DNA of 34,192 bases from assembly GCA_021731365.1 (NCBI GenBank), contig JAKFXL010000019.1:1-34192 (forward strand), in the 5' to 3' direction. Of the stretch, positions 24,299 to 30,677 are shown one piece after another. Numbering within the stretch: the first letter of the stretch is position 1; each line of letters begins with the position of its first letter. The stretch is from Gammaproteobacteria bacterium (GTDB taxonomy: Bacteria; Pseudomonadota; Gammaproteobacteria; Tenderiales; Tenderiaceae). The notes under the pieces were generated by a model. It worked only from the letters and a program-made list of their open reading frames with translations. It searched no databases and was not told where the DNA came from. A program made the position numbers and the translations under genes.

Positions 24299-24359
24299 CG
24301 CTGGCTAATGGCTTTGTGATTTTGTCCGATGATTAGGGTTGTAGATGAAGGAACACTCC

Positions 24360-24767
24360 ATGCCGTATATTGAATTTAATAACAGCCTGCGGGTTGGCAA
24401 CAGGCTCATGGATCAGGAGCATGAGATGCTTGTTGGGTATATCAACCAGTTGCAAAAAGTGGTTGAAGAGGTTGCTGACAGCAATGTTATTAAACAGGTT
24501 ATACGGGGTCTGGTTGAGTATAGCCGTACCCATTTTTTTGTTGAAGAAGAGCTGATGAGGGCGTACGGCTACCCAGACAGCGAGTTTCATCTTCGTGCTC
24601 ATGAAGGATTTCGTGCCAATGCCAGTGCATTAGTGCGTGACATGGATATGGGGGATGAGATTGATCTGGGGCAGATGTTGGGATTTTTAACCGAATGGTT
24701 AACCGACCATATTCTAAACACGGATGTTCAATTAGCGGATTTCCTCAGAGACCAGACGCTGGTTTAA
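24360..24767 (+). CDS. Bacteriohemerythrin
   Basis: 135-aa single-domain hemerythrin with a non-haem di-iron centre that reversibly binds O2 in the cytoplasm. All seven ligands are in place: H21, H58, E62 (HxxxE), H77, H81 (HxxxH), H117 and D122 (HxxxxD). It begins with the family sequence MPYIEFNNSL. A start 15 bp upstream is possible, but the ATG at 24360 has AAGGA at 7-bp spacing. Such proteins supply or buffer oxygen or serve as sensors in microaerobic bacteria. The 3' end overlaps by 4 bp that of the convergent response-regulator gene; the opposite operon encodes a possible oxygen-sensing kinase. Confidence 0.94.
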   Translation: MPYIEFNNSLRVGNRLMDQEHEMLVGYINQLQKVVEEVADSNVIKQVIRGLVEYSRTHFFVEEELMRAYGYPDSEFHLRAHEGFRANASALVRDMDMGDEIDLGQMLGFLTEWLTDHILNTDVQLADFLRDQTLV

Positions 24768-24777
24768 CCGCTGGTCT
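24749..24777. repeat. Inverted repeat over the overlapping 3' ends of two convergent genes
   Basis: AGACCAG / CTGGTCT (24749-24755, 24771-24777) forms a 7-bp perfect stem around the shared TTAA in which both genes stop. With no T-tract on either side, it is at best a weak bidirectional terminator or an mRNA-end hairpin. Confidence 0.45.
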
Positions 24778-25168
24778 TGGTGAGCAGGGTCTGCATGATT
24801 GCCAACAGCTCTTTGGATTTATAAGGCTTATGTAAAAAACCACCCAGCCCCAGTGCCTGGGCGCGTGCTTTATCAATGGCATCGCTATAGCCGGTGCAGA
24901 GCAGGAAGGGCAGTGTGGGGCGTAAAATAAACATCTGTGCGGCCATCTCTGTGCCGGTCATGCCAGGCATTGTTTGATCTGAAATGACTAGATCGACTGC
25001 TTCAAATTTATTTTCAAAATGGTGTAAAGCGGTGGCAGGGTCGTTAAATGTGATGACCTGATAGCCGCGACTGCCGAGCAGTGCTGCAAGAAACAGCGTA
25101 ATTGACTCTTCATCATCAACAACCATGATGTTGGCGGGGTGTTGTTGCTGTTGTGAAAAATTATCCAT
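24764..25168 (-). CDS. Single-domain response regulator (distal)
   Basis: 134-aa CheY-like receiver with no output domain. The acidic pair is D18/D19, the phosphoacceptor is D64 (VISDQTMPG), the switch threonine is T92 (LLCTGYSD) and the conserved lysine is K114 (HKPYKS). It follows the histidine kinase by 23 bp on the same strand, so it is probably a phosphotransfer target of that kinase, acting through protein contact rather than DNA binding. A Gln-rich N-terminal tail (SQQQQH) precedes the domain. It is the last gene of the signalling operon, and its end overlaps the bacteriohemerythrin gene. Confidence 0.9.
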   Translation of the reverse strand: MDNFSQQQQHPANIMVVDDEESITLFLAALLGSRGYQVITFNDPATALHHFENKFEAVDLVISDQTMPGMTGTEMAAQMFILRPTLPFLLCTGYSDAIDKARAQALGLGGFLHKPYKSKELLAIMQTLLTKTSG

Positions 25169-25191: not shown

Positions 25192-27891
25192 TCAGGTGCA
25201 GAGTGGTTCATGTTCGTTAAACAGTAGCCGGAATTGACTGCCGGTTTCAGGTGAGCTGGATAACATAATGTGCCCCCGCGCCTCGTGCATAATGCCATGG
25301 ACCATGGCCAGCCCCATACCGGTCCCTTTACCAATCGGTTTGGTGGTGAAGAAGGGTTCGAATATGCGCTGTTGTGTGGTGGCATCCATGCCGGGGCCAC
25401 TGTCGCTAATACATAACTCCACATGGTTGCCGGAGAACCCCTGATGACAGGAGCTGCATATGGCATTTTCCAGGGTGATTTTTTTCACGGAGATCGTGAG
25501 TGACCCAGTGCCATTCATGGCATCACGGGCATTAATGCAGAGATTGAGCACGATCTGTTGCAAGCCGATGGTATCGAGCAATACTGTTGGTGTATCGGGA
25601 TCAAGCGCGGTCTCCATGGCGATGCTTGATGGTAATACAGGTCGTAACAGTTTGAGCATCTCAGGAATGGCGTTGGAGAGCAGCACAGGTTCTGGCATGT
25701 TGGCGTCGCGGCCACGGCTAAATGCCAGCATTTTGGCGACCAGATCACGGGCTCGTTCACCAGCACGATAGATCTGTGCCAAGTGGCTGCTGAGTGTGGC
25801 GTACCCCTGTGCCTGAGCGATCTCTTGCGATAGTTCAGTAAAACCGAGAATGCCTGATAGCATGTTATTAAAATCGTGGGCGACACCGCCTGTGAGCTGG
25901 CCAATGGCCTCCATCTTCTGTGCCTGTGCAAGCTGCCGCTGCAGCCGTTGTCGTTCGAGCTCTGCAGTTTTACGCTCTGTGATGTCGCGCACTACGCCGA
26001 TAAAGACGGGACGCCCAGCACGGCTGATTTGCGATACTTGTAACTCCATTAAAAAAGTCGCCCCATCTTTACGCCGTCCTGTCACTTCCCGGCTCATGCC
26101 AATAACATGTTTCTCTCCGGTGGTGAGATAGTGATGTAAATAGTGATCATGTTGGTTGTGATGGGGCTCTGGCATTAACATGTTGATGTTGTTGTTGATA
26201 ACTTCGGCGGCGCTGTATGTAAAGATCGATTCTGCCGCATGGTTGAATGCAGTCACAATACCGTGTTCGTTAATAGTGATAATACCTTCAATCAAATTGT
26301 CGAGGATAGCTTGAGTATGCCGGGCCTGTTCTTCACGACTGCGTTCAGCGGCAGCCCTTTCCATTTCAGCACTCAGGCGGGTGGCAAATATTTTCATGAT
26401 GGTAATACTGCGCTTCTCATCTTCAATGGGCTTCCGGAAGAGAATCGTCATGTGGCCAATAATACGTCCCTTGTCATTAAGAAATGGAATGACCAGAAGT
26501 GATTCAATGTTTAGCAGGAGAGGACAATCGGGGTAATGTATGTATGCCTGTTCGGTGATACATAAGTGTTCACCAGGATTGATAAGCGAACAGGGTGTTT
26601 CGTCAATATTGCACTCAAAATTGTCATGGAACTCACCATTGCTCCATACGGCAAGTGTCCGGGATCGGCGTAATATCGGATCGGTGATTTCTGTGACTAT
26701 CACAGTGTCCGCCTCCAAGGCCGTTGCAGCGGTCATTGCACTCACTCTGAACACCTCATCGGCAGAGTTTGCGGTTGTGCCAAGAAAAATCGCCTGCAGG
26801 GTATTTTTTTCCCGCTCCATATCGGTCATTGCGGTTCTTAGTATCTGTTCATCCCGTTTACGCTCGCTGATGTCCTGGACAAGGGTTAAATAGAGTGTCT
26901 CATCCTGTCCTGTTATTTCAGTGATTTTAAATTCAGCGGGAAAGACCTTTTCGCCACGACGGACAGCATGAGCGGTAATGGCACCCTGATTGATGACACG
27001 CCCCCGATGCTCAGCAGAGCCCATCCAGCCTTGATGTTGGGCGCGCTGTTTTGGCGGCATTAGTATGTTGACGTTACGTCCTTTCAGTTCATGCTCTTCA
27101 TAACCAAAAATAGCGCAGGCCGCTGCATTTACTGACTCAATAGTACCGTTGGCCCACACGGTAATGATGCCGTCTGGGATATGTGATACTACAGCGAGCA
27201 GTCGCTGTTTACTTTGCAGTAGTTTGTTTGTCATGGTTTGAAGCTGGATACGCATGGTCTCCAGGGCAGCGGCTAACAAACCTATCTCATCGTGACCACG
27301 TTGTATAATCGGTTCATTGAAGTTGCTTTGTGCCAATATTTTTGCGGCGGATGCCATCTCTTCCAGCGGGCGTCGTATTAACCAGTCCTGCAGTATAAAA
27401 TTCAGTGTTAATCCCGTGGCAATGAATGCAAAAACGATAAGACTGATCAGGTTTATCTTTGAAAGCTCGGCCTTTAATTGTGTGCGTGGATCAAACTGTA
27501 GTGTTATTTGTGCCAGTGGTGCACCGCCAAAATCGATGGGGACTGAGATCTCCATCATATTGGACAAATCCTGTTTATGGGTGACCATTAACGGATAGAT
27601 CTGTTTTTTGTTCGGATTGTTGAGCTGTAACCGCTTCCAGGTTGGATCGGTGGCGATAACAGAATCCAATGTTTTGTATATCTGGGCGAGGTCATCAGAG
27701 AGCAGTGGTTCGACCAGGGCAAGACTGAGTATGTGCAGCTTTATCTGTTGCTCCTGCTGTATATTGGTGATGGTATTATCGGTTTGCCATGGTACCCATA
27801 ACCATTGAGTCAAGGCGAGCAGCAGGCCTAATACAACCAATCCAGGTAACAGTAATTTGGTGCGAATGGTGGTGAATCTGTTAATCCTCAT
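25192..27891 (-). CDS. Membrane sensor histidine kinase, HAMP-PAS-GAF-PAS
   Basis: 899 aa. Order: TM1 13-34, a small periplasmic domain 35-147, TM2 148-168, HAMP about 169-222, PAS1 about 228-345, GAF about 362-515, PAS2 about 525-640, HisKA with phosphoacceptor H672 (GGVAHDFNNML), and HATPase about 770-895 with the N-box (LNLCINARDAM), G1 (SDSGPGM) and G2 (GTGMGLAMV). There is no attached receiver. PAS2 looks like the FixL haem-PAS: H581 in QHDHYL and R601 in MSREVTG fall where FixL has its haem ligand and distal arginine. A CxxCH (812-816) lies inside the ATPase domain. The start overlaps the end of the PhnD-like gene by 11 bp, so the two are translationally coupled; a response regulator follows. 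Confidence 0.93.
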   Translation of the reverse strand: MRINRFTTIRTKLLLPGLVVLGLLLALTQWLWVPWQTDNTITNIQQEQQIKLHILSLALVEPLLSDDLAQIYKTLDSVIATDPTWKRLQLNNPNKKQIYPLMVTHKQDLSNMMEISVPIDFGGAPLAQITLQFDPRTQLKAELSKINLISLIVFAFIATGLTLNFILQDWLIRRPLEEMASAAKILAQSNFNEPIIQRGHDEIGLLAAALETMRIQLQTMTNKLLQSKQRLLAVVSHIPDGIITVWANGTIESVNAAACAIFGYEEHELKGRNVNILMPPKQRAQHQGWMGSAEHRGRVINQGAITAHAVRRGEKVFPAEFKITEITGQDETLYLTLVQDISERKRDEQILRTAMTDMEREKNTLQAIFLGTTANSADEVFRVSAMTAATALEADTVIVTEITDPILRRSRTLAVWSNGEFHDNFECNIDETPCSLINPGEHLCITEQAYIHYPDCPLLLNIESLLVIPFLNDKGRIIGHMTILFRKPIEDEKRSITIMKIFATRLSAEMERAAAERSREEQARHTQAILDNLIEGIITINEHGIVTAFNHAAESIFTYSAAEVINNNINMLMPEPHHNQHDHYLHHYLTTGEKHVIGMSREVTGRRKDGATFLMELQVSQISRAGRPVFIGVVRDITERKTAELERQRLQRQLAQAQKMEAIGQLTGGVAHDFNNMLSGILGFTELSQEIAQAQGYATLSSHLAQIYRAGERARDLVAKMLAFSRGRDANMPEPVLLSNAIPEMLKLLRPVLPSSIAMETALDPDTPTVLLDTIGLQQIVLNLCINARDAMNGTGSLTISVKKITLENAICSSCHQGFSGNHVELCISDSGPGMDATTQQRIFEPFFTTKPIGKGTGMGLAMVHGIMHEARGHIMLSSSPETGSQFRLLFNEHEPLCT

Positions 27892-28720
27892 AAAACTTGT
27901 CCAGACGCATTTTTTTTAAGGGGTCGTAATCTTTTAGCTGGGCAATAGCGACGTTTTTGATAGGAATCTGGCTCAGCATCTTCTGCCCGGATTTTGTTTT
28001 TCCCAGTGATAACATTGTTTGCTGTATTGCATTTCTGATGGGCTCAGGAACTCGTGGATGAGCAGTCAGCGGGTGTGGGGCGACAGCATCGGTGGTATGC
28101 AGGATACGGAGTTGATCCCGTACCGTTGCAGATTGATGGGCGAGTGTGCTGGCAACGCCGCCACCTGCTACAGTGTTGCCTAGCACGACATTGAGATAGA
28201 CCGAGTCGTGACTGTTCACGTAACGTGGTTTAAAGGTGATGTTTACTTCACGTGTCAGCATTGCACGTATCATTAATGATGCACCCAGTGCATTGGGTGA
28301 AGGGAAGGCGATGCTTTGATCACGTAGCTCTTCAAGTTTCATGTAGGGGCTATCTTTTCGTACAACCACAATACCGCGCAGCTCTGTTGCAACATCGCGC
28401 ACCAGGGGGATGTATTCATTGGTTGCGGTGGTTTTAAGAAGTTGGTAGGGGTTGACATAGGCAAAGTCAAATTCGCCGGCGAGTAACTGCTGCTCAAACA
28501 CGGGAATGGTCTGACTGCCACGTAGCACAAAACTGTGCCCGGTACGTTGCTGTAACTCTTTTAAAATAGGACGCCAGATCTGCTGTGTGGTGCGGGCATC
28601 AAATTGCGGTACAACACCTATGGTGAAGTTATCAGCCTGACAGATACTGCTGCTCATTATCAACGTGATGATGGTGAGCCAATGGTAAATGTTTATTCTA
28701 CCTGCTGCCTGAGTTGCCAT
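27881..28720 (-). CDS. PhnD-like periplasmic substrate-binding protein
   Basis: 279-aa periplasmic binding protein of the phosphonate/phosphite (PhnD) type II fold. The signal peptide has a hydrophobic core (YHWLTIITLIMSSSI) with CQA cleavage; this does not form a lipobox clearly. Family features: FTIGVVPQFDARTTQQIW, FDFAYVNPYQLL, the LRGIVVVRKDS strand, AFPSPNALGASLM and GGGVAST. I chose the ATG at 28720, which has AAGGAG 5 bp upstream, over the one at 28738, which has none. No ABC permease or ATPase accompanies it. It sits between a response regulator and a membrane histidine kinase and overlaps the latter, so it probably serves as the kinase's ligand-binding partner rather than in transport. 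Confidence 0.88.
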   Translation of the reverse strand: MATQAAGRINIYHWLTIITLIMSSSICQADNFTIGVVPQFDARTTQQIWRPILKELQQRTGHSFVLRGSQTIPVFEQQLLAGEFDFAYVNPYQLLKTTATNEYIPLVRDVATELRGIVVVRKDSPYMKLEELRDQSIAFPSPNALGASLMIRAMLTREVNITFKPRYVNSHDSVYLNVVLGNTVAGGGVASTLAHQSATVRDQLRILHTTDAVAPHPLTAHPRVPEPIRNAIQQTMLSLGKTKSGQKMLSQIPIKNVAIAQLKDYDPLKKMRLDKFYED

Positions 28721-28756
28721 ATGAACTCCTTTTTGCATTGGTGGTAAAAATCAGGA

Positions 28757-29125
28757 TCACCCGGCAATCGTTGAAATTGCGGCACATAGCTCCTCACGTT
28801 TGAAGGGTTTTCTTAGAATGTTTCCCGCTCCAATCAGTGTGGCCAGTGGCAGATAATCAAAACGGCCATTGAGTCCACCACCACCAGACATCGCCACAAT
28901 TTTTGCGTTGGGGGCGAGTTGGCGGATTTCTAAAATAAGATCGATACCGTTTTTTTCTGGCATGACCAGGTCAGTGATGACCAGATCGATCTGTTCACGA
29001 CGCAGTATCGTTAACGCAGCATTGCCATTTTCGGCAGTCAGCAACTCATGTTCTGGTGACTCCAGCATGGCGCTTACCAGCAGCCGCATGTGGGGTTCAT
29101 CGTCGACAACTAAAATTTTTATCAT
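28757..29125 (-). CDS. Single-domain response regulator (proximal)
   Basis: 122-aa CheY-like receiver. The acidic pocket is in VVDDE (D8/D9), the phosphoacceptor is D52 (VITDLVMPE), the switch residue is the serine of AMSGGGG, and the lysine is K106 (RKPFKR). There is no output domain. I took the ATG at 29125, preceded by AAGGAG at 6-bp spacing, rather than the in-frame ATG at 29143. It is the first gene of the operon, 36 bp before the PhnD-like gene, and has a 14-bp palindrome and a TATAAT-like element upstream. Two receivers with one kinase suggest a branched or competing phosphotransfer. Confidence 0.9.
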   Translation of the reverse strand: MIKILVVDDEPHMRLLVSAMLESPEHELLTAENGNAALTILRREQIDLVITDLVMPEKNGIDLILEIRQLAPNAKIVAMSGGGGLNGRFDYLPLATLIGAGNILRKPFKREELCAAISTIAG

Positions 29126-29139
29126 AGTGATCTCCTTGT

Positions 29140-29153
29140 CCATAGGCCTATGG
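29140..29153. repeat. 14-bp perfect palindrome before the signalling operon
   Basis: CCATAGGCCTATGG, a perfect palindrome immediately upstream of the AAGGAG of the first response-regulator gene. It could be an operator or a leader hairpin affecting ribosome access. Confidence 0.55.
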
Positions 29154-29414: not shown

Positions 29415-30677
29415 TTATTTTTTATCGCGGCTAATGGCCCAGGTGCCATCGCCATCCGGCGCGGCAGAGTGCTGGACGTTGACAAAGAGGGTATGGGGAT
29501 CTTTGCCAAAATAGATGCCACTCCCCTCTGCCTTCGGGTCACTGAGAGAGCCAAACAGCCATACTCGATCCGCCATGCCATCCCGGTTGTTGTCGGGGCT
29601 GGCCACCCAGATATCAGAGGGGAGGTTATCCTCAATAATCATCAGCTTGCCATCCGGTGTCACGGCCAGATTGTCTGGGTTATCAAACCCGGTCTGGAAA
29701 TGGGCAGCGCCGGGGCTGCCTATCTCGACAGGCACATTAAGACCCGGTTTAATGAAGTTGCTGACGCTCAGGGTGGCAAGGTTGATAGCCAGGACCCGGC
29801 CATCATAAAGTTCTACATTGCCCTCATACTCGCCTTCGGTAATGGCGGCATACAGGATATTACCGATAATCTGTAAATCCTCAGGCCGGTTGTATCCCGT
29901 CCCGCCTGCGGTGGTACCCGACTGGCGAGCGGCATGGGGATCGATAGGGCCCACCCACTGGCCGGTGCCAGTACCATCACTATTGCCACTGACTTTCAAT
30001 ACATAGAGCTTGCCTGCGCTGAGATCGCCGTAGTGGTCTGGTACAAATCGGTATATGCCGCCGCCATAACCCTCTTTCTGGCCACGAAACTCATCAACGG
30101 TGTAGACCGAGCCATCGTTACCGACCTGAATACCTTCACGCGCCATCAGCCCCATGGCAGGGCGCTCGTGGGCGGTGCCATACATCAGGTTGTTATCTTC
30201 GAGCACAATCTCAAAAAGTCGGCCATTATCCTTCTCCTCAACCACCAGCAGTGTCCCCCAGGGTGTCCAGACAATCCCGTCGATTGCGCTCCAGTCCGCA
30301 TGTTGCACCAGTACCCGGCTCTTACCACTCTTCAGGTCCACCACCGAAACGGCCCCCCCCTCAGTGGTTTGATGGATCTCATGGGTACGGTAGAGATAAC
30401 GCCCGGCCTGTTTACCGGTTTCGTTTACCGTGTTCATATCGTTCCAGTCGTTGCGGCCATTATTGTAGATATTGAGATCGGACTCGCCTGACACAATCTT
30501 CTGGCTGAAGCCTGGGGGTAATTTCCACGGTGCAGCGGCGTTCCAGTCGGCGCTGTTGGCAGAGCCATCAATAGGTACAAAGCCAAAAGGGCCGGTCAGG
30601 CTGCTACTGTCAGCCTGGGCGGTGGAGAGTGTCAGGCAGAAGAGAATGGAGCGGGTGAGAGTGTGGTAGCGGTTCAT
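29415..30677 (-). CDS. Secreted PhoX/DUF839-type protein
   Basis: 420 aa. A signal peptide (SILFCLTLSTAQA, cleavage near residue 23) leads to a beta-propeller-like protein of the PhoX/DUF839 group. Members include calcium/iron-dependent alkaline phosphatases and many uncharacterised exported proteins. Recognisable pieces are WTPWGTLLVVEE, EGIQVGNDGSVYTVDEF, GGGIYRFVP, NRPEDLQI, PDNLAVTPDGKLMIIED and the closing LFVNVQHS, typical of the family end. AGGAG precedes the ATG. No Tat twin-arginine is present, unlike classical PhoX, so Sec export is likely. The catalytic calcium/iron ligands could not be verified by eye, so phosphatase activity is only presumed. Confidence 0.85.
   Translation of the reverse strand: MNRYHTLTRSILFCLTLSTAQADSSSLTGPFGFVPIDGSANSADWNAAAPWKLPPGFSQKIVSGESDLNIYNNGRNDWNDMNTVNETGKQAGRYLYRTHEIHQTTEGGAVSVVDLKSGKSRVLVQHADWSAIDGIVWTPWGTLLVVEEKDNGRLFEIVLEDNNLMYGTAHERPAMGLMAREGIQVGNDGSVYTVDEFRGQKEGYGGGIYRFVPDHYGDLSAGKLYVLKVSGNSDGTGTGQWVGPIDPHAARQSGTTAGGTGYNRPEDLQIIGNILYAAITEGEYEGNVELYDGRVLAINLATLSVSNFIKPGLNVPVEIGSPGAAHFQTGFDNPDNLAVTPDGKLMIIEDNLPSDIWVASPDNNRDGMADRVWLFGSLSDPKAEGSGIYFGKDPHTLFVNVQHSAAPDGDGTWAISRDKK

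Follow-up and report, generated by a model that had tools for sequence, protein, structure and literature searches.

A FixL/DosP-class PAS domain, predicted to bind haem, in a sensor kinase encoded beside a PhnD-like periplasmic binding protein

Introduction

Does a membrane sensor kinase of a Tenderiaceae bacterium carry a haem-based oxygen sensor, and is oxygen then what this kinase reports on? The question is raised by a stretch of 34,192 nucleotides of Gammaproteobacteria bacterium DNA (GenBank assembly GCA_021731365.1, contig JAKFXL010000019.1), which was analysed as a whole and is called the window below. An initial annotation had described the second PAS domain (PAS2) of the kinase as a FixL-like haem candidate, with a histidine and an arginine at the positions of the FixL haem ligand and distal arginine, and had considered oxygen sensing plausible because a bacteriohemerythrin is encoded next door. 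Our literature search found no paper on this kinase, though one may exist.

Results

Arrangement of the kinase operon

Within the window, four minus-strand genes are arranged as an operon in the order REC-only regulator, PhnD-like protein, 899-residue kinase and second REC-only regulator. The first two are separated by 18 bases and the last two by 23, and the middle two overlap by 11. The features of the locus are as follows (window coordinates, strand, description, basis).

24345..24767, plus strand: bacteriohemerythrin, convergent with the operon and not counted in the system (NCBIfam NF033749)
24764..25168, minus strand: response regulator with REC alone, 134 aa, following the kinase gene after a gap of 23 bases (Pfam)
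25192..27891, minus strand: sensor histidine kinase, 899 aa (ORF list and Pfam; hydrophobic stretches, H-box)
25216..25902, minus strand: transmitter of the kinase, HisKA (residues 664-727) and HATPase (773-892) (Pfam)
25972..26319, minus strand: PAS2, residues 525-640, FixL/DosP-class, predicted haem domain (Pfam, alignment, PDB match, model)
26332..26796, minus strand: GAF-like stretch, residues about 366-520 (similarity to the GAF of an L155 kinase)
26854..27204, minus strand: PAS1, residues about 230-346 (Pfam, alignment, model)
27238..27381, minus strand: HAMP, residues 171-218 (Pfam)
27881..28738, minus strand: PhnD-like periplasmic binding protein, 285 aa, overlapping the kinase gene by 11 bases (Pfam PF12974)
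28757..29143, minus strand: response regulator with REC alone, 128 aa, preceding the PhnD-like gene by 18 bases (Pfam)

The kinase begins with a transmembrane segment (residues 8-35), followed by a periplasmic stretch, a second transmembrane segment (141-169), HAMP, PAS1, the GAF-like stretch, PAS2, HisKA (with H672) and HATPase. The GAF-like stretch has no Pfam match of its own but is similar to the GAF of an L155 kinase (7.8e-18); it contains several cysteines (in CNIDETPC, HLC and DCP), a candidate redox or metal site. Since both operon regulators are REC-only by Pfam, the pathway has its output elsewhere. Upstream of the operon, a PhoX-like protein (29415-30677, minus strand) covers only positions 226-513 of the 515 positions of the PhoX profile and is thus without its first part.

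PAS2 belongs to the FixL/DosP class

Pfam assigns residues 525-637 to PAS, and PAS2 as a whole lies inside the region (25940-26350) where the initial annotation had placed it. Alignment of PAS2 with residues 143-270 of Bradyrhizobium FixL (BjFixL) is gapless, with 55 of 128 positions identical, and the motif framework described before is present: LMPEP (572-576), TTGE (590-593) and VTGRRKDG (603-610), with LMPEP, TTSD and VTGKRRDG as the BjFixL equivalents. Four residues of PAS2 matter for what follows.

26149..26151, minus strand: H581 (in QHDHYL), on FixL H200 and DosP H77, proximal ligand position (alignment and model)
26131..26133, minus strand: H587, on FixL R206 and DosP H83 (alignment)
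26095..26097, minus strand: M599, on FixL I218 and DosP M95 (alignment and model)
26089..26091, minus strand: R601, on FixL R220 and DosP R97, distal arginine (alignment and model)

When PAS2 alone was searched against PDB sequences, it found BjFixL at E=2e-32 and DosP at 8e-18. Fourteen distinct sequences matched at E<1e-6, all of them FixL, DosP or FG214, and the next match came at E=0.006; the FG214 entry, 10jx, is a haem PAS by its title and a multi-sensor kinase by the label in the sequence file. The likeness of PAS2 to FixL is far beyond chance. PAS fold, close similarity and a proximal histidine in helix F are all found in PAS2, which is thereby a member of the FixL/DosP class. In a 2023 survey, FixL and DosP fall together in one PAS cluster (cluster 3), in which more than 9700 sequences (60%) have the histidine and are proposed to bind haem (PMC10468136), and several Pseudomonas PAS domains have been predicted to bind haem by similar reasoning (PMC8694187). 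With PAS2 in this class and both the proximal histidine and the distal arginine in place, haem binding is the most likely reading of the domain.

PAS cavities change their ligand easily. Ligand use is mixed inside PAS clusters, and the FixL cluster itself has nine Fe-S-type members (PMC10468136), from which one might suppose that the FixL-like pocket of PAS2 holds a flavin, a metal or a small hydrophobic molecule in place of haem. We regard this as very improbable: residues 515-655 have no cysteine, and so no Fe-S-type cysteines, and PAS2 matches the LOV and NifL chains by sequence only at E>0.06.

The initial annotation also pointed to a nearby histidine in PAS1, and H286 does align with H200, with alanine at the R220 position. 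PAS1 as a second haem domain is not favoured, for the R220, Y203, R206 and Y207 positions are occupied by Ala, Trp, Ser and Ala, respectively; confidence in the PAS1 model is lowest around these positions (block means 70 and 75).

Structure models of PAS2 and PAS1

An AlphaFold2 model of residues 515-655, computed from 36 aligned sequences, has a mean pLDDT of 95.0. By VIA-align it superposes on oxy-/holo-FixL (1dp6) with Z 20.4 and 1.2 A over 116 of 116 residues, and on ferrous DosP (1v9z) with Z 16.1 and 2.0 A over 113 of 113 residues. Judged by the ranges covered, neither match has a gap, and H581, M599 and R601 (model residues 67, 85 and 87) fall on FixL 200, 218 and 220 and on DosP 77, 95 and 97. 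The claim that H581 and R601 stand at the FixL positions was thus borne out by a gapless alignment and a confident model alike.

A control model of PAS1 (pLDDT 92.3) also found FixL as its first match (Z 18.4, 2.1 A), though PAS1 is without the distal arginine, and we rejected fold rank as evidence for haem. PAS1 is an imperfect negative control, as it keeps a histidine at the proximal position. As judged from these models, a fold match marks the subfamily and not the cofactor.

The His/Arg pair is common and the distal methionine is rare

A profile was built from PAS2 and BjFixL. Removal of duplicates and of domains with over 12 gaps left 161 unique domains, of which 102 (the window's included) scored at least 90 bits, the threshold chosen here for the FixL class. 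The sample took in 60 listed places from class genomes, running down the list to G201:C16, with G003:C24 added and G179:C6 omitted. Most of it was found with PAS2, and the profile itself derives from PAS2 and BjFixL, which tilts the tally towards PAS2: the histidine is present in 101 of the 102 FixL-class domains, the arginine in 95 and both in 94, while the pair occurs in none of the 59 domains below 90 bits. Among the 92 FixL-class domains less than 80% identical, 91 have the H200 histidine, whose column is the second most conserved of 118, and 85 have the R220 arginine, whose column ranks 22nd. H581 and R601 are therefore what most members of this very common class have, and the pair is, by sequence, a class signature and not a distinctive trait.

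How common the class is can be seen from the genomes of the window's taxonomic class, 128 of 274 of which have at least one match at E<=1e-10, and from plasmid records, where 546 of 72,556 have a match at E<=1e-5. In its identity to BjFixL, PAS2 ranks 62 of 102, which is middling for the class. PAS2 is an ordinary member of a large and already described family of bacterial sensor domains, the best known of which bind haem and respond to oxygen. The FixL-like haem candidate of the initial annotation stands as to class, proximal histidine and distal arginine, but the pair is not distinctive (94/102), and the distal side is closer to that of DosP. The bacterium has a second FixL-class PAS (G000:C44:13560-13907; L002, L153), 58% identical to PAS2 and with both the histidine and the arginine; it is part of a hybrid kinase that has 1026 residues and two REC domains.

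The methionine at the M599 position is shared by three of the 102 class members, and GMSRE is found in one, the window PAS2 itself. The closest transmitter relative (L012/L154; 59% identical over residues 510-896) has phenylalanine there, and the methionine is therefore not conserved.

In a further explanation, PAS2 has no haem and relays the periplasmic signal mechanically to the kinase, as proposed for BvgS, with H581 kept for core packing. We think this unlikely, though it has a published precedent. The BvgS PAS has a FixL-type histidine in the helix F cavity and bound no haem on purification or after hemin was added, yet the change His643Ala abolished the response to modulators and lowered the melting temperature by 7 degrees (PMC3726324). 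The histidine alone is thus insufficient for haem. The window kinase, too, has a binding-protein-type input, and PAS2 departs from the class consensus at three strongly kept Gly/Pro sites, namely N566 (Gly in 89/92), L614 (Pro in 87/92) and T558 (Gly in 84/92). A structural role of the histidine would not, however, need the distal arginine, which nearly all class members keep, and PAS2 is far closer to FixL and DosP than to any solved non-haem PAS.

The PhnD-like partner recurs beside kinases with the same N-terminal sensor

Among solved chains, the best match of the PhnD-like protein is to ArrX (E 1.3e-10), which belongs to the AioX/ArrX group of signalling proteins (PMC5908839). Since the PhnD-like protein is the nearest partner of the kinase, oxygen cannot be the sole input. 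We compared 48 PhnD-like loci, comprising 40 from the class search (the higher-scoring 40 of 50 outside the own genome, with G004 covered by L149), 7 from the family and from the bacterium itself, and the window's own. At 30 of these 48, the PhnD-like gene abuts a kinase with the N-terminal sensor of the window kinase, and 18 are without one at the threshold used. Among the kinases with that sensor (n=31, L145 being without a PhnD gene), six have a FixL-class PAS, and five of these the His and Arg pair. In the window kinase it is PAS1 that follows HAMP, where the other such kinases have their FixL-class PAS, while PAS2 adjoins the transmitter.

FixL-class PAS domains (95-138 bits) were seen in PhnD-paired-type kinases of other families at L289, L294, L299, L312 and L145; in L299, the proximal histidine is replaced by arginine and the distal arginine is kept. 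This last case, a PhnD-paired kinase whose FixL-class PAS is without the histidine, lends something to a haem-free relay as well. The genome also has a second PhnD-like gene (45% identical; G000:C43:15605-17109; L142, L152) beside a second kinase, which shares the N-terminal sensor and has HisKA, HATPase and a REC fused to it, and is without a FixL-class PAS.

A PAS2-kinase-REC unit with a different N-terminus was found in G003 (L154; kinase core 1.3e-100, REC 7.6e-43), a genome in which no PhnD-like match was obtained at E<=1e-30. At L154 3004-6344, PAS domains stand in front of a PAS2-transmitter half that is 59% identical, and next comes a gene related to that of the 134-residue REC; given that the front half differs, the PAS2-transmitter unit has recombined.

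The bacteriohemerythrin lies outside the operon

The bacteriohemerythrin named in the initial annotation is a real gene (NF033749, 106.3 bits vs a cut-off of 84), but it is convergent with the operon and lies outside it, sharing 4 bases with the final operon gene. In G003, which has the closest PAS2-kinase-REC unit, the bacteriohemerythrin and the unit are on different contigs, and no close PAS2-kinase neighbour was present within the 1.5-kb flanks of 7 of the 16 listed bacteriohemerythrin relatives (L248-L253, L256). One weak PAS match (1.5e-06) occurs in the flank of L248. With a convergent gene and no linkage in the relatives examined, we rejected the bacteriohemerythrin as weak support for oxygen sensing.

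Discussion

A working model of the kinase

We consider it probable that PAS2 is a FixL/DosP-class domain that binds haem and has a sensing role. The domain would then hold one b-type haem on H581, and the kinase would respond to a gas ligand, oxygen in the first place, or to redox state, with R601 stabilising the bound oxygen; PAS2 would supply one of several inputs. On the periplasmic side, the PhnD-like protein may bind a small, probably oxyanion-like ligand and act through the periplasmic stretch, the second transmembrane segment and HAMP, after which PAS1 and the GAF-like stretch would relay the signal onward. PAS2 directly precedes the dimerisation helix and would control the phosphorylation of H672, from which the phosphate would pass to one or both of the REC-only regulators. 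In this model the haem, the gas binding, the direction of signalling, the ligand of the PhnD-like protein and the phosphotransfer partner are predictions, whereas the order of domains and of operon genes, the residue alignment, the fold and the recurring PhnD-kinase pairing were observed.

A haem in PAS2, if there is one, could be six-coordinate with His/Met ligation by analogy with DosP, where M95 is the sixth ligand of ferrous haem until O2 displaces it and R97 binds the O2 (PMC4263535). M599 may likewise occupy the sixth site until the ligand arrives. A fuller proposal, that a DosP-like His/Met haem in a FixL framework is combined with the periplasmic binding-protein input, so that O2, CO or NO must displace M599 and the kinase works as an AND or veto gate, we hold to be unlikely.

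Taken alone, the PAS2 finding is ordinary. If PAS2 binds haem, PhnD-paired FixL-class kinases (5/31 with the His and Arg pair) would couple the sensing of a periplasmic ligand with that of oxygen or redox state. The family also provides natural variants for tests of haem retention, with His and Arg, with His only, with His changed to Arg (L299) and, in print, with a haem-free His (BvgS), and M599 makes the question of five- versus six-coordinate haem testable in one protein.

Comparison with known systems

PAS2 resembles FixL of Bradyrhizobium and Sinorhizobium in the proximal histidine, the distal arginine and the equivalents of Y203, Y207, I216, V222, M234 and L236, and the window kinase, like FixL, has this PAS directly before HisKA and a haem-free-looking PAS upstream. 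It differs from FixL in R206 to His587, I218 to Met599, G219 to Ser600 and I215 to Val596, and the kinase differs in having a periplasmic binding-protein input and neighbouring regulators with REC only, without FixJ-type output. Orthology with FixL was rejected (NCBIfam NF041777, 260.6 bits vs a cut-off of 850), and a FixJ-type partner with receiver and DNA-binding output was not found among the neighbouring regulators (134 and 128 aa), though the genome beyond the locus may hold one. FixL is repressed as a kinase when O2 is bound to its haem (PMC8534201), and SmFixL R200H keeps its haem and autoxidises more (PMC10765370). We take SmFixL R200 to be the same position as FixL R206 and H587.

With E. 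coli DosP (EcDOS), PAS2 shares the residues H77, H83, M95 and R97, as H581, H587, M599 and R601, and the distal strand is VIGMSREV in PAS2 and VEGMSREL in DosP, with GMSRE common to both. At three positions PAS2 sides with DosP and not with FixL, having His and not Arg at 206, Met and not Ile at 218, and Ser and not Gly at 219. The two domains are 34% identical, with Y588 against DosP N84 and L617 against DosP F113, and the window protein is a histidine kinase whereas DosP is a phosphodiesterase.

BvgS is like the window kinase in combining a PAS that has the FixL-type histidine with a periplasmic input of binding-protein type, but its PAS was found to be haem-free on testing, whereas haem in PAS2 is a prediction.

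On the periplasmic side, no arsenic oxidase or reductase gene was seen by name or tested Pfam among the listed ORFs of the window, and, of the oxyanion-site residues Tyr, Ser-x-Ser, His and Cys106 of AioX/ArrX-type proteins, the conserved Ser-x-Ser is not clear at the aligned place in the PhnD-like protein (SPNALGAS, in one low-identity ArrX alignment). The gene arrangement, in which a PhnD-fold binding protein, a membrane kinase and regulators are encoded next to one another, is that of the AioX-AioS-AioR and ArrX-type systems, from which the window differs in having regulators with REC only. PhnD-like sensing is also known from the two-component system TtrS/ThsS (PMC5408782), where the PhnD-like part is inside the kinase, whereas in the window it is encoded by a separate gene.
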